Origin: Tribonema minus
Lineage: Eukaryota; Sar; Xanthophyceae; Tribonematales; Tribonemataceae
Direction of reading: 5' to 3'
DNA: 64,000 bases
NCBI GenBank assembly: GCA_017506865.1
Contig: JAFCMP010000515.1
Coordinates: 724,719-788,718 of the forward strand
Of the stretch, positions 1,061-64,000 are shown one piece after another. Position 1 is the first letter of the stretch. Every line of letters starts with the position of its first letter. The notes under the pieces were generated by a model. That model was not told the DNA's origin and did not search any database. It saw only the letters and a program-made list of their open reading frames with translations. A program made the translations under genes and the position numbers.

Positions 1061-3762
1061 CTACCCCGCTGTCCAATCGCGCTCCTCGATGCTGCCGTTC
1101 GCGCGCCGCAGCCGCCCCGCGCCGTGCTGCGCGCCGCCGCGCCACAGCCCCTCGAACGTGTCGCCGCAGGGGTACGCGCACGTACCCGCGCCGCAGCGCT
1201 CGCCGCCCACAAACTTGCCCCTGTACACCTCGCGCGTGACGCCGCCGCGGTGCTCACCCTGCCCGTTGGCGCGGCCGCTGCGCCACGCGCCGCTGCGCGA
1301 AAGAGTGGGCGGCGCGCATGCGGCGCGGCAGCGCACAGGGTGGCTGAGTTTGGGGGAGTGCTTGTGGGCGCATACGCTGCTATTGGAGTTGACAAGCCAC
1401 CAGGTCTGCAATCGAGCTGCTCGTTGGACACATCGTTGGGGGTGATGTTGCGCCGCGCGCCGCTTTTCTGCGTCGCATGCAGCAGCCCTGTATTGTAACA
1501 GCACGTCTGCCGGGACCCTGTGCACGCCAGGCCCTTCAGTGTGCGGCCAGATGCGCCACAGATCTCACACCAAATGCGATGAAGACACGGTCACAGCACG
1601 CACATGTAGGTTCCTTTGGACAACCTTTGCTGAAGCACTACCTGACATTCATGACGAGCTTCAGTTCATGCCATGACAAGCCATGGCAATTGCAGTGCTC
1701 AAACTCACATGTAAACAGACCCATCTGCGTAGTCGCAGCGCCCCTCCCCCTCCCGCAGCAGCGCTCGGAACCCCCCCTCGTAGCGCCACTTAGGCGTGTC
1801 CTGCGTCCCCCTGTGCAGCTCCCCCCGCTCCCAGTCCCCCTGGAACACCGACCCCCCCAGGGTCAGCTGCCCCCTGCCGTGAGGCGCCCCCTCCGCCCAC
1901 CGCCCCACATACTCCGACCCATTGCAGAACGCCCCGCCTCCCTGTCCGCTCGGCACGCCGCGCTCCCAGTCGCCGCTGTAGCTGCGCAGCGCCGCCGCCG
2001 CCGCGCACGCGCTCGCGCCAGCTCCGCTTGCGCCGCCGGCGGCAGCAGGGGCGGCGGCGGTGGCAAACACAGCCTCGCCGAGGCCGTGTATCACGCCGCG
2101 GTCCCACTCGCCGCTGTACTGCGCCAGCGGCGGCAGGCGCGCGGCGGCGCTGCCGCCGGCGCTGCCGCAGCGCTCAGCGCCGCCGCCGCCGCTGCTGCTG
2201 CTGGCGAACACCATCTTGCCGCGGCCGTGCGGCGCGTCGGCGCTCCACGCGCCCGCGTAGCTGTCGCCGCTGGCGTAGGCGCAGGTGCCGCTGCCCTCGC
2301 GCTGCCCCGCGGCGTTGACCGCGCCGGTGTACACGTCGCCGTTGGGCAGCTCCAGCCGCGGCGGCGGCGGCGCTGCCGCTGCTGCTGCCGCTTGCTCGTC
2401 GCCCTCTTCTGCGGGAGCGAGGCTGCCGCTGCTCTCGTCAGCCAGGAGCACTGTTAGGCCATGTGCGCTGCCCTGCTCTGCGCTTAGATTGAGGACGCGG
2501 CAGTCGCGCAGCCTGGTCCCGTGCGCGCCGGCGCCGCCGCAGATCAGCAGCCTCGAGGCGCCGAGCAGCGTCGCGGCGGCGCCGCAGCGCGGCGCCGCAG
2601 CGTCAGCGTGCGCGTACTCATTCGACGCGCAGACTTTGGCGACCGTGCCAGCAGCCGTGAGCGCAAGGACATCAGCGCTCAACTGGCCGTCGCAGCCAGT
2701 GACGCCGCCGATGATGTACACGGCTGTCTTGACGACCACCTCCGCTGCTGCTGGCGCTGTGCTGGCGTGGTCCGTGGGTGGCGTGCCTTGGCCTGTGGTC
2801 CACAGTGGCGCTCTAGGTTTTGCAGCTTGCGCCGCTGCTGCTGCTGCTGCTGTTGACGGCGCATCTGCTGCTGCTGGCGGCGGCGCCGAGTCGAGCGCCG
2901 CTGCGGCGGGCGCCACCACGGCTGTGTGCATGCAGATGGGCGGCAGGCCTGTGTCGGATGTCAGGGTCCAGGTCATCGATGATAGACTCAGCACTGCAAC
3001 CGTTTTTTGCCGAACTTTGCCGTCAAAACCGCCGCACAGGACCACACGCTGGCCGTCTTCCACGGCGCTCAGCGTGTGATGACACAGCGCCGGCGGCGCT
3101 GCGCCCGCCGGCTGCAGCTCGTGCCATCGGTCTTGCTCAAAATCGAAGCACCAGAGGTCATTCAATATGCCGGAGTCAGCGCCAATGCCTCCGTGCACGA
3201 GAAGGACAGGACGGGCGCCGTCAAGCTTGGCAATGCACGCCGCATGCCAGGCTCTTGGCGCAGGGTGTTTGACGACGTCCGGAGCTGCTGCAGCGGCGGT
3301 GGCAGAAGCGCGTTTTCCTTTGGGCGGCGCTTTCTCAGGTACCGCCGCAATCGGCTGGGGATTGGTACCTAGCAATCGCCAGGACAAGCGTTCAAGTCCG
3401 GGTGTCAAATGCGCCATGTAGGCCTCATTGGTGCTGGCAGATGCAGTCTGCCCTCCGAACACAACGAAAGTACTTGGCGTCGGCCCACTGACGAGGGCAT
3501 GCCCGCACCTGCAGGTAGGGACTTGGCCCTCGCTGGCAGCGTCAACATTGACCCATCTGTTCTTGACCAGAATCGACACCAGCAAGCGAGGATACAGGCG
3601 AGGGTCCCCTCCAGCCAGACAGACCTGACCGTCGCTCAGGGTGCATGCTTTCAGCCCCGATACGCCTGATGCGAGGTAGTCCGCTTGGCCAGAAGCTCCC
3701 TCCCAGACCACCTCCGCTGATTTCGCGTTCCCCGACGCTGTAGCAGGAAGCAGCTCGGTCAT
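1061..3762 (-). CDS. Kelch-repeat / MORN-repeat fusion protein
   Basis: Two exons, complement(1061..1292, 1709..3762), give 761 aa. The 416-bp intron has donor GTGAGT and acceptor GCGCAG. Joining it restores the MORN core VYIGAWRSGRANGQG across the junction, which supports the splice. The N-terminal part (roughly residues 90-440) has Kelch-type blades with paired glycines: FVVFGGQ, VLLVHGGIG, VVLCGGFDG, VYIIGGVTG, LLICGGAG. From about residue 469 to the end are MORN repeats of the form YxGxWxxGxxxGxG. Ala-rich linkers separate the modules. Kelch propellers usually bind proteins, and MORN arrays bind lipids or act as scaffolds at membranes and flagella, so a structural or adaptor role is inferred. 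The start is the ATG at 3762. It is divergent from the TrmO gene 181 bp away. The domain calls are firm; the biological role is not known. Confidence 0.85.
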
Positions 3763-52217: not shown

Positions 52218-52221
52218 GTAT
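52218..52221. repeat. target-site duplication, left copy
   Basis: GTAT directly before the left LTR, matched by GTAT at 63605-63608 directly after the right LTR. Confidence 0.8.
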
Positions 52222-52576
52222 TGAAACAAAGTTGGGGTTATATTTGTTATGTTAAGCCTGTCTTACTTGTAGATGGGGCAGCGTTGGCTTGGGCTGATTT
52301 AGACGGGTCCATGATGGTTGATGGTTGTTGGCTTCAGTTGTCTCTATCCTGGAGCCGTGGTATCCTAGCTGAGTGACAAGAACCGAGGCCTTGCAAGCAC
52401 AACCCTTCATCTGGGGAGACTCAAGGGTCTCACCGGTTAAGGGGTTTTCCTGCAATGTTCCCCTAGTTCGAACCAATTGCCCTGGGCCCTAATAACGGCC
52501 GAATATAATAGAGTTGAAACATCATAAGCCAGAAGGCTACATAAATAGTTTACTTTACATACAGCTGCCCGTGTCA
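52222..52576 (-). repeat. left LTR (3' LTR of the minus-strand element)
   Basis: 355 bp, TGAAACAAAG at the left end to GCCCGTGTCA at the right end on the plus strand. It appears identical to 63250-63604. An AT-rich ATATAATAG-type motif near 52502-52510 could belong to the promoter. Confidence 0.95.
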
Positions 52577-52591
52577 ACTCCCCCTTCTCAT
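52577..52591 (-). other. polypurine tract
   Basis: On the sense (minus) strand this reads GAGAAGGGGGAGT immediately before the 3' LTR, as expected for the plus-strand priming site of reverse transcription. Confidence 0.85.
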
Positions 52592-52829: not shown

Positions 52830-55661
52830 CTACCTCACATCACCATCGCTCAAATCCATGTCATCGCCACTGTATGAATCTGAACCTCCCTGACCAGACT
52901 CCTGGCCCAAGGGGACCTCTTCTGCGACCGTGGTCAGCAGTAGATTCCAACTGGACATAGGGTCTGCCTCAGCCTGCTCGCTTGTAACTGCGGTGCTGTA
53001 GTAGTCAGGCCTCAGCCGCACGGTGATTAAACGCGTGACTGGGTGCCCGTTGTAATGCACGCGAAATGTGTACTTGCCGGCCCGGGGCAAGTATTCCTTG
53101 AGCACTGCACGGCTCCAACCAGTTGCACTTTTGACTCTCACGGTCTGACCATGGTAAGTCGCACCAAAGTCTGGTGGAATCCCAGGGCACATTTCCTGCA
53201 CCACCTTGGGGCTAGAAACCGTGACGCCCAGATCCTTTGCGCGCTGCTGAGTGGCTTCAGCCAACGCAATTGCGCATTGCAACTGCCGCTTTGTGAAGTC
53301 CTCCCAGTCACCATCTTCATAGCGCACGCGCCAGTACGGGGCGAGGTAACCAGTGATGGTTCCCCATAGGTACTTGACTTGTTGCTTAAGCGCGCCGCGC
53401 TCCTCACGCACCACCTTAGTACCTCTCGGGAATAGGGCCAGCGCAGCCTCTTTCGTGGATACGCGCCGGTCCTCCCGTGGTATCCTCGTGGCGTAGTCAG
53501 GCATGTCATTCACATGCTTCAACTCGTAGAGCGCGTGAAAAGTATCGAGCGTCCAAGGCATGGCAACCTCGAGTGCATCGTCCTCTGTCTTCCATGTGCT
53601 CAACGTACCATCTCTGAGCAGCCAACGGTAGTCCCACGAACCATTGGGGTTGTACCGGCGGTCTACCAGCCTCTCTAGCCAGCCATCCTTGGGCAGTTGC
53701 TTAATGTCTTCCTCATTAAGCACCGCGTAGGGGTTGTCAAGTTCCATGACACTTGGCCTTAAATGAAAAGGCTTCATGTTGGTCACATGTGCCCGCGTGC
53801 GACGCACCCGGCGCCCCATCATGCGGCATGAAAATGACAGCCCAGATCCGCCAGTTTCCTCTGCTACCACCCATGGTCCAATGAATTTAGGGTCCAGCTT
53901 CCTGGAGCGTCCCTTAGCAGGCTTCTGCTTGATCATGACCAGGTCCCCAACTTTAACCTTCATTGCGCGCTTGACCGCTTCATTAGCCTTGTCAACTCTG
54001 CGCGCCTTGATGCCATATGCCTCATCAATAACCTTCTGTGCCATTTTGAGGTTGACGCGCTTGCGTTCAATCTCAGAATGTAAGTCGCCACCATGCACTT
54101 CATCAGGGAAGGTTTCGAACGGCAGGGACGGCTCGCGGCCATACACACAGTAGAAAGGGCTCAGGCCTGTTTCTTCTCTGGGGGTGGACCGGAGGGCGAA
54201 CTGCACAGCCTCAACGCCCTCATGCCAATTCTGTTGGGTCTTGTCAACCCAGGCAGTCAGAATGGCCATGATGCGTTCATTTTGCCGTTCAGCGACCCCA
54301 TTTGCCTGTGGGTGGTATGCACTTGTGTCAATTTTCATGATCCTGAAAATTGAGCACAAATCGCGCACCACAATGTTCAGAAACTCCTTGCCTTGGTCCG
54401 ACACCAGCTCCTCTAACATGGATCCCATTTCTAGGATTACCTTGTACAAGAGCCTTGCAACCGTATGCATGTCCTTGTTTTTAATTGGCATGAGCCAGCA
54501 AAATCCAGAGCGTGCCTCAATTACTGTCAGCAGCCCTATGTGCCCCTCTGAAGACACCACCGAGGTCATGGTGATGTCAGTGTGCGCTCGCTGAAACATG
54601 CGAGTTGGCAGTGTTAACATCATCTTGGCCTTGCCAGTCGTAGCCTTCTTGCGCTGTAGGCAAGACATGCAACTAGTGACATACGTGTGTACATCACTGC
54701 TGATGCGAGGCCAGTAGAAGCGCTCAAACAGGCGGACATACGTGGCGCTTGCGCCGGCGTGACCGGCCGTGGCGTCGTCATGCCCCAGCCTCAAAACCAG
54801 AGGGCGCAGCGCGGCGGGTACAAACCATTGGCGCAGCACCATCCCGCGTTTGGGGTGGCTGGTGGCCAGATGTACCAGCAGGCCGTCCTCCTCGTGACAG
54901 TACCAGTCACGGTTCACCATTAAGTGTGCAGCCAGCTCACTATCCTGCGGGTATATATTGTCCCTCAGAGTGCGTGACACTGCCTGACACAAGGGGTCCC
55001 GCTGCTGGAGCTCAATAAACGCTTCCCGGCTTAGCATTGCCGGCACAGGCGTGGTCCCGTCAACTGGTTCAGGGACCAGTTCATGGCTGGGCCTGCTGAG
55101 TGTGCGCTTACGGCGTGGCTCCGACACCCCCTCTGTTCGCTGCGGGGGGATGGCGCCCCCTGGTAGCGGTACAGCGGTGTTGGCAGCGACCCGGCGGCGC
55201 TTGGCAGATATGCTCGCAGTCTTGCTAGATGCCGGGGAGTCCCAGTCAGACTCTGCCGCCTCATCCATGCATGCATTAGCATACATATGCAAAGTAGCTG
55301 GACTGAAAGACATCGACGCAGTCTCTCCATCCGTCCACGAAGAGTCTTCCTCGTCCAGCTCACATAGCAAAACATTGACCTGTTGGACCGTAAGCGTAGC
55401 CAGCCTGGCTGCTATGCTTGAGTCCTCACTTGCATTCTTCATGGCTAGCTCATTGAGCGAGAAGGGAGTGCCCCACTCATTGCTCACCAGTTTACCCCTG
55501 AAGTTGGCAATTTTAATTGCCGCTGCAGAAACATGTGACCCATGGTTGGTCGCCTTTGCTTGGTCAGCAAACTCCCTAAGGGCGCCGCAAACTCTTCCAC
55601 AAAATGTGCAAACTTCACCCCTGAAGGTGGTGCTGCAAAGCATGGAATTGAGTCTGACCAT
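52830..55661 (-). CDS. retrotransposon integrase ORF
   Basis: An open frame of 943 codons whose first part overlaps the RNase H frame; the functional join is by frameshift near 55580. A zinc-binding HHCC lies at about residues 290-335 (GHDDATAGHAG to CMSCLQ). The D,D35E core is AHTDITMTSV (about 357), VSDQGKEFLN (about 421) and YHPQANGVAERQNER (Glu about 457). Then come a GPY/F-like module (KFIGPWVVAEE, HVTNMKPFHLRP), a segment WDYRWLLRDGTLSTWKTEDD recalling a chromodomain, and a Tudor-like stretch VKYLWGTITGYLAPYWRV followed by YEDGDWEDF (about 755-785). It inserts element DNA into the host genome; the C-terminal reader-like modules probably guide where. Confidence 0.92.
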   Translation of the reverse strand: MVRLNSMLCSTTFRGEVCTFCGRVCGALREFADQAKATNHGSHVSAAAIKIANFRGKLVSNEWGTPFSLNELAMKNASEDSSIAARLATLTVQQVNVLLCELDEEDSSWTDGETASMSFSPATLHMYANACMDEAAESDWDSPASSKTASISAKRRRVAANTAVPLPGGAIPPQRTEGVSEPRRKRTLSRPSHELVPEPVDGTTPVPAMLSREAFIELQQRDPLCQAVSRTLRDNIYPQDSELAAHLMVNRDWYCHEEDGLLVHLATSHPKRGMVLRQWFVPAALRPLVLRLGHDDATAGHAGASATYVRLFERFYWPRISSDVHTYVTSCMSCLQRKKATTGKAKMMLTLPTRMFQRAHTDITMTSVVSSEGHIGLLTVIEARSGFCWLMPIKNKDMHTVARLLYKVILEMGSMLEELVSDQGKEFLNIVVRDLCSIFRIMKIDTSAYHPQANGVAERQNERIMAILTAWVDKTQQNWHEGVEAVQFALRSTPREETGLSPFYCVYGREPSLPFETFPDEVHGGDLHSEIERKRVNLKMAQKVIDEAYGIKARRVDKANEAVKRAMKVKVGDLVMIKQKPAKGRSRKLDPKFIGPWVVAEETGGSGLSFSCRMMGRRVRRTRAHVTNMKPFHLRPSVMELDNPYAVLNEEDIKQLPKDGWLERLVDRRYNPNGSWDYRWLLRDGTLSTWKTEDDALEVAMPWTLDTFHALYELKHVNDMPDYATRIPREDRRVSTKEAALALFPRGTKVVREERGALKQQVKYLWGTITGYLAPYWRVRYEDGDWEDFTKRQLQCAIALAEATQQRAKDLGVTVSSPKVVQEMCPGIPPDFGATYHGQTVRVKSATGWSRAVLKEYLPRAGKYTFRVHYNGHPVTRLITVRLRPDYYSTAVTSEQAEADPMSSWNLLLTTVAEEVPLGQESGQGGSDSYSGDDMDLSDGDVR

Positions 55662-56188
55662 TGCTCGTCTGCTTGCTCATACTCTCTAGGAGCGTCCAAC
55701 TCTTTTTGCATAGGGAGCCTGGACAGGCCGTCTGCATTTGAGTTCACCAGGCCTGGTCGGTGTTGTACGGTAATGTCGTACTCCAGCAACCTCATAGCCC
55801 ACCGCATAAGCTTGCCATTGTGGTCCTGCAAAGTCAGCAGCCATCGTAGGGCCGCCGCATCTGTAACCACTGTGACTGGGTTGCCCCACACGTAAGGTCG
55901 GTAATGGTTGAGTGACAGCACGACGGCCAGGCACTCTAGCGCGGTAGCGCCAAGTTTGGCGTCTTGTGTGGAATTAATTTTTGAGAAGTAACCCACTACT
56001 ACTTCCATTTCCTCCTTCCCATTTACTGTGCGCCTGCGGCCTGCCGCGGGGGCAGCTTCTTTGCCACTAAGTGCCTGCACTGGTTTAAATTGCGTCAAAA
56101 TGCCACTAGTGGCAGTTTGAGATGCATCAGTGTACAGCACAAATGGTAGTGAGAAGTCTGGGTGTGACACCAGTTTTGCCTCGCACAT
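55484..56188 (-). CDS. retrotransposon RNase H segment
   Basis: Frame opening at MCEAKLVSHPDF and containing the Ty3/gypsy RNase H signature: LPFVLYTDAS, KLGATALECLAVV, VVTDAAALRWL and the ending HRPGLVNSNADGLSRLP. It is separated from the RT part by an extra base in a run of seven T (plus strand 56193-56199) and from the integrase by another shift near 55580. It degrades the RNA template during reverse transcription. Confidence 0.88.
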   Translation of the reverse strand: MCEAKLVSHPDFSLPFVLYTDASQTATSGILTQFKPVQALSGKEAAPAAGRRRTVNGKEEMEVVVGYFSKINSTQDAKLGATALECLAVVLSLNHYRPYVWGNPVTVVTDAAALRWLLTLQDHNGKLMRWAMRLLEYDITVQHRPGLVNSNADGLSRLPMQKELDAPREYEQADEQWSDSIPCFAAPPSGVKFAHFVEEFAAPLGSLLTKQRRPTMGHMFLQRQLKLPTSGVNW

Positions 56189-56396
56189 TGCCTTTTTTTA
56201 ATGCCTCAAAGGCATCGCGCCTGCGCCTATCCCATACCATTTCTGCATCACTTTTGGTCAGCTCCACAAGTGGGGCTGCCAATGTCGCAAAATCTTGAAC
56301 ATACCGCCGGTAATAGTTGAAGCAGCCCAGTACTGTACGTACTAGCCCCTTGTCAGCTCTCCCTTTGGCATTCAATGGCGCGCTCATGTCAGACAT
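56127..56396 (-). CDS. RT-RNase H connection segment in a shifted frame
   Basis: A short frame holding GCFNYYRRYVQDFATLAAPL and the VWDRRRRDAFEALKK end, which is the connection after the gypsy reverse transcriptase. It continues the RT only after a one-base shift at a run of four C (plus strand 56428-56431), and it loses frame again at 56193-56199. Confidence 0.85.
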   Translation of the reverse strand: MSDMSAPLNAKGRADKGLVRTVLGCFNYYRRYVQDFATLAAPLVELTKSDAEMVWDRRRRDAFEALKKGNVRGKTGVTPRLLTTICAVH

Positions 56397-59300
56397 TGCC
56401 TGAACCTTTTCTGGGTCCGGACGAATGCCCCTGATCCCACAATGTGACCAAGGAACTTGATCTCAGTTTGGAACCATTGGCATTTGTGCCGCGCCACACT
56501 TAGACCAGCGTCTTTGATGCGTGATAGGACGTCACGGATATGCGCAAGGTGCGTTTCCATGGAGTCATCATATATCAAGACGTCGTCGACGTAAACCATG
56601 GCATATGCACCTAGGGCAGCGCCCAAAGTGTTGTGCATCAAGCGTGTGAATTGCGCAGGCAAATTCACAAGCCCAAAAGGTGCCACTGTGTACTGCCATA
56701 GCCCTCCATCAGGTGTGCGGAATGCCGTTTTAGGCTTGTCACTTTCGCGCAATGGTATCTGATGGTAGCCCGCGGCCATGTCGACTGAGGACACGTACCG
56801 GGCGCCCTTCATTTGATGCACCATATCATCGATGTTGCCTAGACCTCTGCTGTCGCGCTTCGTGACAGCGTTGAGACGGCGGAAGTCCACGCAAAATCGT
56901 ATCTGATCACCTTGCCTTGCTAGTACTGGGTTGCATGCCCATGGACCATTGCTAGGCTCCACTTGCTTGCGCACATGCATGGCCTTGACATGTTCCATGA
57001 TGTACTCTGCCTCCTTTTGCGCCCACCTCCTAGCCTTTTCAGCGATAGGCATTGCATCACCAGTGTCAATCTCAAACTCCATGAGGTTTGTCACTGTCGG
57101 ATTTTTGGGGTCCTTTGCAAACACGCTCGCGAATTCGTTGAACACATCCATCAGATGCTCAGCATATGGCCTACCATCGGGGGCTTTCATATCATGAAGG
57201 TCACCTTTGGTGGGTAGCATCTCGCGTAGCTCTGCTTCAGTGCAGGGTTCCTGTGTGGTACGAGTGCGTTCTGTGCCTGGTGTAGCAGCAGACACATTAG
57301 CAGCACCATAGGTACCAGCAGCCTTCCCCAATGCAATTGCTCGCAGCGCCGCGGTTGCAGCGTAGCTGAACTCGCTGTTCGGGTGGTGAGCTGCAGCCAC
57401 CTGCAAGAGCTGTTGCTCAAGCTTGGTCGCAGATGCGTCCTCCAACTCAATGATATCCTCAGGCGAAGCCGGCCGTGCCTCACCAATGAAGGTGTTTCTG
57501 GCCATAAGCACCGGCTGGTCTGAGAAGTTTACCATGCGTGCGCGCACAGGGTTGTGCGCGCCAACAATATCCACCGACATGGCGGCCTTTACGCCCCTTT
57601 CTTGCAACTTCAACATCGTCTGAGACATTGCGGGTTGTATTACTGCCGAGTAGGGGCTCAGCCCTTTCACTGGTGGGTGTAATGCAACTTCAACGTTCAC
57701 CTCGGTGTGCGCTGGAATGAGTATGTCATTCACCAGGCACACGGCACGATGCGCAGGGGGGGCTGGTACTTTGGGGCTAATTTTCACAGCCCCTGCGGTC
57801 TTAGCGCCTTGCCACACCGTCCCATGCGCTGCCTCGCTGCCTAGCATCTTCAACTTTGGGCCGTCCGAACCTAACGGCTGGTATGTCAAATCCTCATAGT
57901 CAAAGAGGGTTTTGTACATGCCAAAGAAGTCGCTGCCTAGAATGGTGGTGATGGCCAAGTCCACAATGTAGAACTTGTGCCGCACCAGCTTGTTACCAAA
58001 CCGTAAGGTGAGGTGCAAAGCGCCTACGATCTTGACCTGTGTGCGACTGTCTGCCAGTTCTATGACTGAATGGTCCCCCTTCTCAAGAGGGCATGTCGTC
58101 CCTGGAGATAGCTCATCCGCCGTTGCTTTTGCCATGATGCCTGCCTCAGCGCCGGGGTCCAGCAATGAGACAAAGTCTCGTTCTTTGAACCCACGTTGGT
58201 GCTGCACGCGTGCCTTCAGCCTGGCAAACCGCTGCTTGCTGGGCTGGCCACTTGGCAACACAACTGTCTCTCCCGGCCTCACCGAGGCGGGATCCACTTC
58301 AGCGGCTTGTGAGCGGCTCGCTTCATCGTGTAGCTTGGCAGCCACAGCGCTCACGCGAGGGTTGCCTAGCCCACGCCTGCGAGTTGCCTCATGCACCGTG
58401 TCGTCAAAGTGATGCTCGTCTTCACTGGCGTATGCACCTTGTGAGGAGCCGCTAGGGTGTGACTGCACAAGTTCCTCTTCCTCAACTTCATCAACATCAG
58501 AGTCTGAGTCATTGCACGAGTCATTGAGCGCTGTGCAAGACCAAGGACCTGTGTTCAAACCTTCTGCACATATCATATCAGGGGTGACTGCATACTGCCA
58601 AGCACTGTATCGTGCGGTGATGGCCGCAACCCTAGCCTGCACCTTGCCTTGCTCAGTAGGAGTCTCTGCCACATGCATGTAATCTTCAGACCCTGGCAGC
58701 ATCCATTCAGGGGGGGGTGCACTAGGGTCATGGTCCAGGCGGACACCCCGGGGACAAGGGGCGCCTACTTGAAGATCAAGCATGCCAGATCCCACAAGCC
58801 CAACGGCAATGTGAAAAGCCATGCGTGGCATGACTAAGTTTACAAGCCATAACTTCATGTCCTCAATGGTGGCCTTGCATGGCAAGTCACGTGTAAAGGT
58901 GAGCAGGACAGCCATTTCACGCAATGACAGTACTCTTGCATTTTGCACAGGGCCAGCATCATGTTCATCATCAGCCACATAGTCAGCCAGATCCACTGGT
59001 GGTTTTCCAGGGTTCCGCCTGACCGGGCTGGGCATGCAGTCATCGGCATCATACACACTCTTGGTACCCTTCACGCGAGATTTCCAAAAGAAACAGCGCT
59101 CAGGGCAGCGAAGAACGCGCCGTACGGACATGGGTAATGATGAACGCTGAATTGCATTAATTAACGCCCCGAACCGTGCCATAGCGGTCGTGACACCAAC
59201 CCCTGCCCGCGCAATCACCACATACAGCCGCCGCCGGTGGCACGCTATGCTAAAATCCGACCCCTTCAGCTTGCTGACATAGAGACAGTAGCCGTGGGCC

Positions 59301-62134
59301 AGCAGCAAAGCCTGCGCGCGCGCCCACGCCTTGGAGCTGAGCATGGATACCACATTCTCGATGACACAGCAGCGCAGCTTCGCCCTCACAATCAGCCGCG
59401 CCGCCATGATCGTCACCTCCGCCGCTGCCCCCTCAACGCCACTCCCGTTTGCATAATCTGTGCACGGGGGGGACATTGTGGTGAGGTCAGGATCCAGTTC
59501 AGCCAGTGCTATGGCTACTGCATCATCGCTCAGGCACGCGTTTAAAACCTTGTGGGTGCCAGGGTGCAGTTCGTGGTACGCCTCACACACGCGGGGGCAC
59601 TTGTCAACAGCAAGTTGAGTGTCCACCACAAGGCCTGCCACACTTGCCTGCTTTAAACCCTCGTCCCAGCCACCAATGCCGCAGCATATGGAGGCGTGTG
59701 TCACATGCCGCGCTGCACCCGCCACTGGCATGCCAGCATCAGGGTCCTGTGTCACAGCGGTAGCACAGACAGGCGATTCGCTTGCATTAGGTATGGTAAC
59801 CGTATGCGGCGAACCAGTGTTTGATGGGGGAGTATCGTTTGCACTATCACCTTCAAGTTGCATGTTAGCATCAGCCGTAGACTGCGACACTTCCGCGAGG
59901 GAAGGTACGCTGGGTAACGAAGGATGCAACATAGCCAGCAATACGGCGTCATTGTGCCCAGGCGCGCGCTCACGTGGTGAGGTTGCGATGGACGCGGAGA
60001 CGCACATATCACGTTGACCAAAAGCATGTTCAAGTTCAACTGCGGCGCGCGCACCGCTGGTGCCACCCCCTGAGAGGGCCGCACGCGCGCGCGCGAGCGA
60101 AGTAGACTCACCCTGAGCCCTCTGCCAGGCCACAAAGGCCATCATCTTGTGATACTCGTCCGCCTCCGCTGGCGTTGGCGCAGCGGCAGCAGCCGCCGCT
60201 GCCACGACCGGCGCCTGCGGCATAGCAGCCGGGGGCGGAAAAGGGGGGCGGGGACCGTACCGCGTGTACTGATTCGCCTGATGCGCCGGTGGCGCGCCGC
60301 GCGGCTCACCGCGCGGCCCGCCGTACGGTGCGGCGCGGGGGCGGCGGGAAGGATCAAACGCCGGGCAGTTGGGCGTGTTGCGATGCATGTCAACGGCGAT
60401 ACCGCGCGGCAGCGTTGTCTGGCAGTCAAAGCATACCCAGTGAGAACGCGGGTTGAACTGCACCATGCCTGAATTGTCATGCTCAGGCGCGGGGGGCCCA
60501 CGCCTGGCGGGCGCGGCTGCCGGAGCCGACTTGGCGGCTACAGCAGCAGCTCGCACCTCCAAGGCTTTCTCCTTTTTGGCGAGGCGCCTCTCCTTGTCCG
60601 CCAGCGCCCTCTCCTTGCGCGCAATCTGCGAGGCAGAGGGCGTCTGGCGCGGCGCGTCACTTGCTTGCGACGCGTCGTCGCGCAAACTCTCGCGGTCAGA
60701 ACCATCCTGCGACGTGGGTCCGCCCTTGCTCGCGGCATGGGCTTTCCCGTTCCAGGTGCGCTCAATGTGCTCCTGAATGCTCGCAAGACCAGCGTCCTGC
60801 CAGCCCCTCCCCAGTGCAACCCTAGCGGCCGTCCGCTCCTTGGATGAGATGAGGCGTAAGTAGTGAAGCTTTTCAGAAAACTCACGAGAACTTTCGCTAC
60901 CACCTGCCTGTACAACCATGTTCCGCACGCGGAGAGCCAACTCCCCAGGGCTCTCGCTCGGGAGACGCCTGGCTTGAAGTAGAGAATTGTACACCTTCTC
61001 TTGGGCAGCTTCAGAGTTGAAGTGCTCAATTATGGCTGCACAACGTTCTGCGTACGTTAGCTGCTCCCACCCCTTCCGCTTGCCGCCGACCTCTAGGGAC
61101 AGTAGGCGCACAGTTGAAAGTAAGGGTTTGTCCTTCGACGCCTTTATGGCCACACTTAGAGCGTGGACCTTGACGTCCTCTGCCATGGAGCGCAGCGCAG
61201 CGGTGAGTGAGTCAAGCCTGGTGACACATACACCTACGCGAGAAGAGAGGTCGGCTACGCCGGCAATCCTACCAGCCTTCGCATAGACGTCTCCCTTGCC
61301 CCTGTTAGCAGCGTCAGCGCCGTCCGCTCGGGACGGTTCACTGCCATCGTCGCTGGGGGTCGTGGTGACCCCAGTGCTCGACGGCGCAGTATGAGACATC
61401 TGAATCGAGGCCGCCACGCCAACGCGGGGCGGGGCAACCTGGACCAAACGCCCTGCCTGCAAGTGCTGCACCAGCTGCACCTTCTCGAACGCCTTGAGAC
61501 GGCGCAGTGTATCTGCATCGCCAAGATCGCGATCCATGATTGCGTCGAGTTCTATGCGAGCAGTCTCCAAAGCGCTGAATCTCTGTGAGTACGCGCAGCG
61601 GTCAACTTCTACCTGCTCCATGCTCGCCTTAAGACGTGGAAGCTGGTACGTGATCGCATAGAGGTCCGTCTTGTACATTGTACGTTCAGGGGAACCCTCC
61701 TTGCTAGCATCGCGCAGGCCACGCAACACCTTAGCCTGGGCGTCAAGGTCCTGGAAACGTTCTTGCAGCTGTACCTCGTCTGCAGACAGTCTCGCCGAGG
61801 CAGATGCCCCGGACTTGTGCGAGGCCGCCAACAGCTCGAGCAGCCGGGTATAACGGGCTCTGGATACGGTTAGACCGGCACCAGTCTCACCCGCATCAGA
61901 GCTGGCGTCGTCACCGGCGCCAGCGCATATCTCGTCGTCGAGCTCCGCCTCTCGCTCGCTACCGCCAACGGCCGGCGCAGGAGGGGTTGCGGGCTCCTTT
62001 GACGACTTGGACTTCTTCGCGGGCTTCTCCGGCTTGTCAGCCGGTGCCGCATCAGCCTTGCCCTTACTCCCCTTTCTTTTCGTGGAGGAGTCCGAGTCTG
62101 CACATGGAACAGGATCATGTGTTGAGTCTCTCAA
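56384..62134 (-). CDS. gag - zinc finger - C5 DNA methyltransferase - protease - RT polyprotein
   Basis: A 1916-codon frame. Residues 1-560 are gag-like: Lys/Pro-rich start, helical region, ELALRVRNMVVQAGG. A CxxC...H...C finger (HWVCFDCQ to HRNTPNCPAF) is at about 565-592. A cytosine-5 methyltransferase spans about 808-1115: motif I SICCGIGGWDEGL, IV TMSPPCTDYANG with catalytic Cys, VI ENV, VIII CHRRRLYVVIA, IX LSLREMAVLLTF and X LVMPRMAFHIAVG. The protease has LLDPGAEAGIMA (about 1323) and ILGSDFF. The RT has FCVDFRRLNAVTKRD (about 1745) and MVYVDDVLIYDD (about 1846). The frame begins without an ATG: the 5' codon is TTG and a TGA lies four codons upstream. Translation may follow splicing; an acceptor-like TTCCATGTGCAG lies just inside. 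The frame ends by frameshift shortly after the YVDD region. Confidence 0.95.
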   Translation of the reverse strand: MRDSTHDPVPCADSDSSTKRKGSKGKADAAPADKPEKPAKKSKSSKEPATPPAPAVGGSEREAELDDEICAGAGDDASSDAGETGAGLTVSRARYTRLLELLAASHKSGASASARLSADEVQLQERFQDLDAQAKVLRGLRDASKEGSPERTMYKTDLYAITYQLPRLKASMEQVEVDRCAYSQRFSALETARIELDAIMDRDLGDADTLRRLKAFEKVQLVQHLQAGRLVQVAPPRVGVAASIQMSHTAPSSTGVTTTPSDDGSEPSRADGADAANRGKGDVYAKAGRIAGVADLSSRVGVCVTRLDSLTAALRSMAEDVKVHALSVAIKASKDKPLLSTVRLLSLEVGGKRKGWEQLTYAERCAAIIEHFNSEAAQEKVYNSLLQARRLPSESPGELALRVRNMVVQAGGSESSREFSEKLHYLRLISSKERTAARVALGRGWQDAGLASIQEHIERTWNGKAHAASKGGPTSQDGSDRESLRDDASQASDAPRQTPSASQIARKERALADKERRLAKKEKALEVRAAAVAAKSAPAAAPARRGPPAPEHDNSGMVQFNPRSHWVCFDCQTTLPRGIAVDMHRNTPNCPAFDPSRRPRAAPYGGPRGEPRGAPPAHQANQYTRYGPRPPFPPPAAMPQAPVVAAAAAAAAPTPAEADEYHKMMAFVAWQRAQGESTSLARARAALSGGGTSGARAAVELEHAFGQRDMCVSASIATSPRERAPGHNDAVLLAMLHPSLPSVPSLAEVSQSTADANMQLEGDSANDTPPSNTGSPHTVTIPNASESPVCATAVTQDPDAGMPVAGAARHVTHASICCGIGGWDEGLKQASVAGLVVDTQLAVDKCPRVCEAYHELHPGTHKVLNACLSDDAVAIALAELDPDLTTMSPPCTDYANGSGVEGAAAEVTIMAARLIVRAKLRCCVIENVVSMLSSKAWARAQALLLAHGYCLYVSKLKGSDFSIACHRRRLYVVIARAGVGVTTAMARFGALINAIQRSSLPMSVRRVLRCPERCFFWKSRVKGTKSVYDADDCMPSPVRRNPGKPPVDLADYVADDEHDAGPVQNARVLSLREMAVLLTFTRDLPCKATIEDMKLWLVNLVMPRMAFHIAVGLVGSGMLDLQVGAPCPRGVRLDHDPSAPPPEWMLPGSEDYMHVAETPTEQGKVQARVAAITARYSAWQYAVTPDMICAEGLNTGPWSCTALNDSCNDSDSDVDEVEEEELVQSHPSGSSQGAYASEDEHHFDDTVHEATRRRGLGNPRVSAVAAKLHDEASRSQAAEVDPASVRPGETVVLPSGQPSKQRFARLKARVQHQRGFKERDFVSLLDPGAEAGIMAKATADELSPGTTCPLEKGDHSVIELADSRTQVKIVGALHLTLRFGNKLVRHKFYIVDLAITTILGSDFFGMYKTLFDYEDLTYQPLGSDGPKLKMLGSEAAHGTVWQGAKTAGAVKISPKVPAPPAHRAVCLVNDILIPAHTEVNVEVALHPPVKGLSPYSAVIQPAMSQTMLKLQERGVKAAMSVDIVGAHNPVRARMVNFSDQPVLMARNTFIGEARPASPEDIIELEDASATKLEQQLLQVAAAHHPNSEFSYAATAALRAIALGKAAGTYGAANVSAATPGTERTRTTQEPCTEAELREMLPTKGDLHDMKAPDGRPYAEHLMDVFNEFASVFAKDPKNPTVTNLMEFEIDTGDAMPIAEKARRWAQKEAEYIMEHVKAMHVRKQVEPSNGPWACNPVLARQGDQIRFCVDFRRLNAVTKRDSRGLGNIDDMVHQMKGARYVSSVDMAAGYHQIPLRESDKPKTAFRTPDGGLWQYTVAPFGLVNLPAQFTRLMHNTLGAALGAYAMVYVDDVLIYDDSMETHLAHIRDVLSRIKDAGLSVARHKCQWFQTEIKFLGHIVGSGAFVRTQKRFRQCLT

Positions 62135-63231
62135 ATATACCCCTCACCATCCAACAATAAGATATCCATCAGCCTGGGAGAACAAAAATTATTATAGTAC
62201 TCATCAAGAGAGCTTCTCTTGGAACATGGGATGTCCCTGTGCGCTCGCCCGTGCAATTAGCCAGCCCGGGACGTGCACAGAACACACCGGCACTCCCATG
62301 AGATGCATGTGGTTGCCAATCATAGCCACGCAAGTCAGTAGAACCACGGGCTCCCGCAACCGTGTCAACCGCGGCATGCTATGTCTCAATGCATTTGATT
62401 CTAGTGCGGCAGCGGCAGAGCAGAGTTACTGTTGTTGCTGCGCAAGCACCATATGCACACCTGTTTATCGTCGTAGTTAACGCTGTTGCCTAGCTGATTG
62501 TGGCCTGCACCAATCCAACACCTCCGGTATGCAACCGTTACCTAAGTTGCTCTGGGTAGCAACTTCAAGCGAGCGTCGACGCATTCGCAAGACGAACTGT
62601 GATCATCAGCTCGATTACACCATCATCAGATGGTGCCGAGAAACAAAGGGTGGGGGGTGATGGGTAACCTCGCAAGCCCACTAATGCCCGTGCAAGTCAG
62701 TACGGGAGAACCCGTACCGCAGCTTTCGACAGTCAGCCTCATCATCTCAATTACACAGCGTTAACAGCCGACGTCATGCGAAGCAACTACGGGTGTGTGA
62801 GCCGCTGCTAAGCATGATTCCTCCGACACAGGCACTGGAGCTAGGGCGGCTCACGCAGCATAAAAGCACTGCTGCTCAGTGTTCACTTGGTAGCGACAGC
62901 TGGCACAACCAAGCAAAGGATGCGGCATGCAGGCGCATATTTACAATGTGCATGCACACCGACCCCTGCGCTAAATTCCTCCTCGTAGCTGCCTCCAGTT
63001 AGTACGAGCGGTAACCAACACTCAGCGCGTCCGCCTCGCGAAGGGCCGATACTGAATGATTGGACGATTTCCTATTCGGTCAATTGGCCTACGTTAAGGA
63101 GCGGGAAAGCAACGTTGGCGCTCCAGAGCACGTGTTGATGAGGGCAAGCGAGGGCTAACGATACGATATTTAAGGAGCACGTGTAGCTTGGTTCGTCAGG
63201 GCCCGCCAGAGCGAAGCAAGGGGTGGGTAAG
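62135..63231 (-). other. retrotransposon 5' leader
   Basis: About 1.1 kb between primer-binding site and gag frame with no long open frame. It presumably holds packaging signals and perhaps a leader intron. Confidence 0.5.
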
Positions 63232-63249
63232 GACTGTCTGTAGGTGCCA
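63232..63249 (-). other. primer-binding site
   Basis: Directly after the 5' LTR the sense strand reads TGGCACCTACAGACAGTC. The leading TGG complements a tRNA 3' CCA end. The tRNA species was not identified. Confidence 0.75.
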
Positions 63250-63604
63250 TGAAACAAAGTTGGGGTTATATTTGTTATGTTAAGCCTGTCTTACTTGTAG
63301 ATGGGGCAGCGTTGGCTTGGGCTGATTTAGACGGGTCCATGATGGTTGATGGTTGTTGGCTTCAGTTGTCTCTATCCTGGAGCCGTGGTATCCTAGCTGA
63401 GTGACAAGAACCGAGGCCTTGCAAGCACAACCCTTCATCTGGGGAGACTCAAGGGTCTCACCGGTTAAGGGGTTTTCCTGCAATGTTCCCCTAGTTCGAA
63501 CCAATTGCCCTGGGCCCTAATAACGGCCGAATATAATAGAGTTGAAACATCATAAGCCAGAAGGCTACATAAATAGTTTACTTTACATACAGCTGCCCGT
63601 GTCA
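63250..63604 (-). repeat. right LTR (5' LTR of the minus-strand element)
   Basis: 355 bp, same ends as the left LTR (TGAAACAAAG to GCCCGTGTCA on the plus strand), with no difference noticed between the two. Confidence 0.95.
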
Positions 63605-64000
63605 GTATTGCATGAATCAGCATGAATCAGGTGGAGCGGGGGGTCATTGGTGGTAACGCATGGCGTGCGTTACATGATCGAGTCAATGGCCAGAATACCT
63701 GTTTAAAACTCACCTGCATCTACCATTCAAAAGCAGCCACCAGGCTGCAGCTGTGCACTGCACAGACTAGGCTGCTGCATGTGAGTAAACCCTAGGAATT
63801 CATGGGACACTCAGCCTCCCTTGGGCGTATGTTTTTTTATGCAAGTCCACAAGTGCAGTGCGCAGGCGCTAGTGCCAATCTCGCGAGCCTCGTTTCACAC
63901 ACGCCAATGGCACTGTGCTGGTACGTGCAGCGGAACCATGCATAACGCTCGCACGTAGCGCACGCACTGTGCTATCTGCACGCAAGTCACACGCACGCAC
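63605..64000. other. right flank of the retrotransposon, no gene recognised
   Basis: Begins with the second GTAT. About 390 bp of ordinary sequence. The missing part of the GH26-like hydrolase was not recognised here. Confidence 0.4.

Follow-up and report, generated by a model that had tools for sequence, protein, structure and literature searches.

A C5-cytosine DNA methyltransferase domain encoded between the Gag region and the protease of Ty3/Gypsy LTR retrotransposons in the xanthophyte alga Tribonema minus

Retrotransposon-borne cytosine methyltransferases (MTases) have already been published for dinoflagellates and charophytes (PMC5890265). Of these, KnitGypsy-Dnmt3 of Klebsormidium nitens is a Ty3/Gypsy LTR element with a DNMT3-related MTase in its polyprotein and a Ka/Ks below 0.2, while the C5-MTases of SymbioDIRS-Dnmt3 and SymbioLINE-Dnmt are present in hundreds of copies in Symbiodinium. 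The first of these is a DNMT3 and the second an orphan DNMT encoded in an ORF upstream of the reverse transcriptase (RT). SymbioDIRS DNMT performed de novo CG methylation in the published tests and its authors proposed methylation of cDNA; the SymbioLINE MTase gave no DNA methylation in yeast (PMC5890265). In streptophytes and dinoflagellates, DNMT3 members are also described from DIRS and LTR Copia elements (PMC12344493). Among stramenopiles, Gypsy-10_Ec32 of Ectocarpus bears a Tudor domain at the C-terminus of Pol, and a T. minus homolog has been reported; the section consulted on it mentions no C5-MTase in LTR elements (PMC12477816). T. minus itself is reported to have DNMT5, DNMT4, CDCA7 and HELLS (PMC10538959).

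The window analysed here, a stretch of 64,000 nucleotides of T. minus DNA, contains a Ty3/Gypsy (Metaviridae) LTR retrotransposon of this xanthophyte (Table 1). It has LTRs of the TG...CA type with a target-site duplication, and its RT is nearest to that of Ty3 among solved structures (134.9 and 132.1 bits; 95.7 for the next other RT). The order protease-RT-RNase H-integrase was also found, the last three domains by Pfam and the protease by motif plus one sub-threshold gag-asp_proteas match (22.0 against a cut-off of 28.2 bits) between MTase and RT in the sibling copy L017. The two LTRs match at 355 of 355 positions and, with the GTAT duplication, show that the insertion is recent. No Pfam gag model gave a match in the window element, so the label Gag region rests on position and on a zinc-finger-like C2HC motif. 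In four sibling families the MTase is preceded by similar motifs. The long frame has its first ATG at residue 153.

Table 1. Features of the retrotransposon in the window, in the 5' to 3' order of the element
Feature	Position	Strand	Basis
5' LTR, 355 bp, TG...CA	63250..63604	-	
Putative primer binding site TGGCACCTACAGACAGTCC	63231..63249	-	
Long open frame, 1,916 aa (Gag region, MTase, protease, reverse transcriptase)	56384..62134	-	
Zinc-finger-like motif, Gag region, C-x2-C-x12-H-x5-C (unusual spacing)	60365..60433	-	pattern only
C5-cytosine DNA methyltransferase domain, 308 aa, motifs I, IV, VI, VIII, IX, X	58790..59713	-	
MTase motif I, CCGIGG	59669-59686	-	
MTase motif IV, SPPC	59456-59473	-	
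MTase motif VI, IENV	59348-59362	-	
MTase motif VIII, CHRRR	59222-59242	-	
MTase motif IX	58901-58930	-	
MTase motif X	58802-58834	-	
Aspartic protease region (LLDPGA ... ILGSDFF)	57923..58165	-	motif
Reverse transcriptase, RVT_1, E=2.2e-29	56438..56905	-	Pfam
Interruption of pol frame, window copy (stops at 56384, reopens at 56188)	56189..56383	-	
RNase H domain (RT_RNaseH)	55778..56158	-	Pfam
Frame change before integrase, window copy, approximate	55559..55580	-	
Integrase zinc-binding H2C2	54645..54821	-	Pfam
Integrase core (rve)	54330..54605	-	Pfam
Tudor-like match (PTM_DIR17_Tudor), below Pfam cut-off	53277..53375	-	
Putative polypurine tract GAAGGGGGAGT	52577..52587	-	
3' LTR, 355 bp, same as 5' LTR	52222..52576	-	
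Target-site duplication GTAT, 4 bp (partner 63605-63608)	52218..52221	.	

An earlier note, made from the letters of the window, had proposed a C5-MTase built into the polyprotein of such an element. This was borne out by Pfam (PF00145 DNA_methylase, E=1.4e-11 and 44.8 bits in the whole ORF, 52.4 bits for the domain alone, cut-off 22), by the pol domains and LTRs around it, and by the catalytic motifs I, IV, VI, VIII and X in the expected order. The domain occupies residues 808-1115 of the frame and is flanked by the Gag-region zinc finger on one side and the protease on the other. The note had placed it at 58800..59705 and left the strand unstated; an MTase does lie there, its exact extent being that of Table 1, and the plus strand of the same interval has 7 stops. 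PHROG matches of the window MTase are to DNA MTases (E=3.9e-19), while the score against the Dcm superfamily model TIGR00675 (38.7 bits) fell under the NCBIfam cut-off of 100.65. Judged by its sequence, the domain is confirmed as a genuine, full-length C5-methyltransferase.

The same note had described the MTase as uninterrupted and as retaining its catalytic residues in a recent insertion. The catalytic Cys is indeed present, and the MTase and Gag region are open, but the pol of the window copy is broken downstream, at 56384 and again at about 55560, from where the integrase continues in a different frame. Near the first of these breaks, the RT match of sibling copies covers the 167-aa query as far as residue 161. 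The reader-like module that the note saw in the integrase corresponds to a Tudor-like match, which scores below the Pfam cut-off of 27.2 bits in the window (22.1) as well as in L009 (16.7) and L012 (16.1), and is not listed by Pfam for L022 or L017. The element resembles Gypsy-10_Ec32 in being a stramenopile Ty3/Gypsy element, with a Tudor match that is weak and sub-threshold (PMC12477816).

The closest known systems (PMC5890265) compare as follows. Like KnitGypsy, the Tribonema element is of the Ty3/Gypsy LTR type, with an MTase in the polyprotein, conserved catalytic residues and signs of purifying selection; it differs in the position of the MTase between Gag region and protease, in its stramenopile host and in its many deep families. 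With the Symbiodinium elements it shares a C5-MTase present in hundreds of copies. Those are DIRS and LINE elements, however, whereas this one is an LTR/Ty3 element with RNase H and integrase; from SymbioLINE it is set apart by element type.

Beyond what the earlier note had described, the window element proved to be one among hundreds of copies in many families. A genome search with the window MTase gave 435 candidates, of which 128 places were scored, with identities of 41-100%; for 27 of the 128 the surrounding frame is 3,000 codons or longer, and one of these 27 has a TAG inside its match. An MTase identical over 308 aa occurs at seven places including the window, and four of the other six are in frames of 3,104 codons. 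Searches with the Pfam model (123 matches, 378 candidates), a class B MTase (131 matches, 130 scored of 383 candidates) and a class C MTase (125 matches, 122 scored of 397 candidates) were pooled with this one, repeats and second pieces of a place being omitted at entry and neighbours within 1 kb merged. The result was at least 289 MTase places, broken pieces included. Four were taken as host genes by tree position or Pfam score (two on C223, one each on C181 and C523; C223:702740 was counted so without reading the locus), leaving about 285 or more. Identity to the window MTase ranges from 22 to 100% over several deep families. The possibility of a chance ORF was ruled out by this copy survey.

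Relatives were also found in databases. Searching 5.8 billion proteins with the polyprotein region as a single sequence returned nothing at E<=1e-3, whereas a profile of 16 MTase families did recover relatives. Among the database proteins, P0027 of T. minus is a piece consisting of Gag region and MTase. Three metagenome protein fragments are 79, 76 and 62% identical to the window family, which by this measure show that close kin exist outside the T. minus assembly.

The MTase keeps a fixed place in these elements. Single frames of 3,087-3,234 aa encode the MTase together with RT, RNase H and integrase in four sibling families. When the window RT was used as query and 150 of 475 candidates were scored, 117 of the 150 class A/B RTs were preceded on their own strand by an MTase no more than 5 kb away (111 using the first two MTase lists alone), with a median gap of about 2.0 kb. 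The earlier note had raised the case of siblings lacking the domain; the siblings have it at the same place. For the other 33 RTs, whose loci were left unread, no MTase was found upstream and some of these copies may be without the domain. Five of the 33 are on the plus strand within 4.5 kb of a contig start.

A search with the class C RT gave 149 rows, of which the first 66 were class C/F, 23 belonged to a lineage X and 25 to a lineage Y; 35 fragment rows were dropped. An MTase was located upstream of 62 of the 66 C/F RTs, and upstream of none of the X (0/23) or Y (0/25) RTs, 0 of 48 together. These counts suggest that lineages X and Y may be MTase-free, though they may instead carry a divergent or unscored MTase. 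Both lineages (for example L065 at G000:C15:513847 in X, G000:C33:4597 in Y) have Ty3-like RTs and some frames above 3,000 codons; L065, the one locus read from the two lineages, has an RT with 36% identity to that of the window. Placement of an RT downstream of the MTase was observed for classes A, B, C and F, class E (L050) being outside that reading. MTase-bearing and apparently MTase-free lineages thus coexist in one 158-Mb genome.

We aligned 41 MTases from 41 places, a set that was hand-picked for coverage of the families and is therefore not random. Residues G15, C84, E119, N120, R160, R162 and R213 were invariant in all of them. Among them are the catalytic Cys, both arginines of motif VIII and the EN of ENV, all kept despite identities to the window down to 22%; loss of the catalytic Cys in all other copies, considered in the earlier note, is thereby contradicted. 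The prolines of motif IV do vary: STPC (STLC in one copy) is found in the 46% family, and SSC or APC in class B. On the strength of these variants, some MTase families may have altered activity.

Nei-Gojobori dN/dS values for the MTase between subfamilies were 0.07-0.30 (L040-L053 0.07, window-L013 0.18, window-L016 0.22, L040-L042 0.24, window-L022 0.30), a dS of 1 or more being near saturation. Three pairs among the window and two 80% copies gave 0.12-0.16 for the MTase as against 0.02-0.04 for the RT, whose dS is saturated. Among close copies, six pairs had values of 0.16-0.33 and two had no synonymous change; the pairs at 0.76, 0.84 and 1.9 (the last with 7 differences) show weak or no sign of constraint. 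Taken as a measure of constraint, the ratios between subfamilies indicate that the MTase is under purifying selection. Distances in the MTase and RT trees were correlated (Mantel r=0.94, p=1e-4, n=12; inside class A r=0.60, p=0.005, n=9), so the MTase has long been inherited together with pol.

The type of the MTase was assessed by searching PDB with the 16-family profile. Four DNMT2/tRNA-C38 MTases were the top matches (79-82 bits); DNMT2 scored 82, DNMT1 69, HaeIII 64 and HhaI 62 bits. None of the 53 PDB sequences at E<=1e-3 is named DNMT3. At E<=10 DNMT3A appeared with 15 bits (E=0.12), below DNMT2, DNMT1, HaeIII, HhaI and Rad8. On these profile scores, the trees described below having no DNMT3 among their rows, the element MTase is not DNMT3-like. 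In this it differs from the DNMT3-related KnitGypsy enzyme (PMC5890265), the comparison being one of PDB scores (DNMT3A 15 against DNMT2 82 bits). The profile favours DNMT2, DNMT1, HaeIII and HhaI over DNMT3A, whereas KnitGypsy and SymbioDIRS carry DNMT3; on this indirect evidence a capture independent of these published ones, suspected in the earlier note, is likely.

Two quick trees were built from rows found with the element-MTase profile, which include no DNMT1, DNMT3 or published retrotransposon MTase. The first had 75 rows: 16 element MTases, 3 host rows and 56 database proteins of P0004-P0062 chosen by length. One group (SH-aLRT 98) comprised all 16 element MTases together with two stand-alone MTases from metagenomes; outside it were the 54 other MTases, two MTases of the host and a DNMT2-like host fragment, which is on a long branch. 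In the second tree, of 80 rows, 35 members of the stand-alone family formed a clade (95) that was grouped at 96 with the element MTases and the environmental protein P0164. Here classes A/B/E (94) and C/F (100) were not joined. There may have been two separate captures, one in A/B/E and one in C/F. Forcing the 16 element rows together was not rejected (AU p=0.646), but the branching of A/B, C and X is not resolved in the RT tree.

The stand-alone family (P0004, P0005, P0121-P0163) consists of environmental C5-MTases of about 420 aa, and these are the nearest sequence kin found. The P0005 family aligns with the element MTases over 288 columns, target-recognition region included (hhalign E=1e-52). 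It differs from them in being a separate gene that starts at motif I, with no RT in the protein, and in an extra conserved C-terminal stretch of about 120 aa, for which the members scanned gave no Pfam match above cut-off. Its best PDB matches are bacterial DNA MTases (78-92 bits), DNMT2 scoring 37-54 bits. Scans of IMG/VR and GTDB with short exact peptide patterns gave pattern matches and no confirmed relative. A search with P0005 added MTase places, for example on C224, C96, C401 and C334, that are outside the pooled count. Another MTase group, 31-32% identical to P0005, was noticed at G000:C112:335124, C224:915144, C401:72093 and C334:742903, where the frames reach 2,585 aa.

As far as our literature search reached, no report was found of a C5-MTase in a stramenopile Ty3 element. 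Within that search, MTase-bearing retrotransposons are known as a kind, and the host group, the MTase type, the position between Gag region and protease and the diversity of families appear to be new. What is added is a stramenopile Ty3 radiation in hundreds of copies, with an MTase of a different type from most published retrotransposon MTases. Why a retroelement would methylate DNA can here be tested directly in one alga, in which the variants of motif IV offer natural contrasts.

The fusion to Gag-Pol, the intact catalytic residues and the signs of selection favour an enzyme acting within the cycle of the element. On balance we lean towards an anciently captured, Dcm-like MTase that is carried in the particle as part of Gag-Pol and methylates the double-stranded cDNA that the element itself has just made. 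The enzyme, kin of the stand-alone Dcm-like MTases and not of DNMT3 type, would have been acquired long ago by an ancestor of the Ty3 lineages, which then radiated. Made as a module between Gag region and protease, it would enter the virus-like particle within the Gag-Pol precursor, where the protease might or might not free it, and would methylate the cDNA at the sequence that the enzyme recognises, at the latest on integration. The cDNA would in this way gain the host's own mark, much as phage DNA does from phage-borne MTases. Of the nucleic acids that could serve as substrate, cDNA seems the most likely; against this, lineages X and Y seem to manage without an MTase.

Substitutions among copies have some bearing on this reading. 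In copy pairs with more than 20 transitions, CpG transitions were 1.3-3.1 times as frequent as other C/G transitions; near-identical pairs gave ratios of 0-7.5 from a handful of changes. The excess is consistent with CpG methylation of the copies, by the element's enzyme or the host's, and coding constraint could contribute to it. CpG depletion of the element (0.81, rest of the window 0.93) was dropped as evidence, the difference being too slight.

Since the top PDB match of the profile, DNMT2, is a tRNA MTase, the enzyme may instead act on RNA. It would then methylate cytosines in a primer tRNA or in the genomic RNA of the element, aiding packaging, stability or priming. The four leading DNMT2/tRNA-C38 structures and the location of the MTase after the zinc-finger-like motif are in keeping with this, and RNA methylation has been raised for SymbioLINE (PMC5890265). 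We nevertheless consider it unlikely. The window MTase lacks CFT, the DNMT2 motif; the host DNMT2-like fragment falls outside the element group, albeit on its long branch; the stand-alone kin score closer to bacterial DNA MTases than to DNMT2; and the PHROG matches are DNA MTases.

Action in trans on host chromatin, rival elements or algal DNA viruses (exclusion), and not on the element's own cDNA, would suit the high copy number and the identical MTase at seven places, and an antiviral role has been proposed for accessory domains of retrotransposons (PMC6338049). The in-frame polyprotein fusion, however, suggests delivery in a particle and not a free nuclear enzyme, and we regard this alternative as improbable. 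Still more doubtful is retention of the fold for DNA or cofactor binding or for structure, with catalysis not under selection. The motif IV proline is missing in some families and the MTase is less constrained than the RT (with the RT dS saturated), as such a role would allow, but the catalytic Cys, the EN and both arginines are invariant in 41 of 41 sequences from families that differ from the window at as many as 78% of sites. The idea that the element merely harbours or adjoins, by chance, an ordinary MTase gene of the host or of a contaminant, for which no support was found, is refuted by the copy survey, with its roughly 285 places, fixed position upstream of RT and unbroken shared frames.

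A more specific form of the cDNA reading, which we put forward tentatively and hold to be rather unlikely, is that a modification MTase of prokaryotic or viral type, as opposed to a eukaryotic DNMT, was captured once before the A/B-C/F split, diversified its target recognition by family and serves in the particle to mark the element's own cDNA. If so, each family would place its own sequence-specific mark on its cDNA and pass a host check for foreign DNA. This would parallel, in a eukaryote, the anti-restriction methylation of phages.

Several further observations were made in the genome. Two HhaI-like MTase genes untied to the element, L059 (G000:C223:937850-939100) and L060 (G000:C181:39950-41000), have a motif X-like LGNSVVP ahead of a GYP or LG segment. 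Such a segment normally precedes LGNSVVP, and the two genes possibly represent a rearranged order of C5-MTase motifs. L030 and L029 are fragments of the RuBisCO large subunit in nuclear contigs, probably inserts of plastid DNA, and L030 is red-type by residue reading. There were 92 matches to light-harvesting proteins in the genome; like the RuBisCO remnants, they fit T. minus as host. In the window itself, an open frame of 685 aa on the minus strand (1705-3762) contains repeats that by eye resemble MORN repeats.
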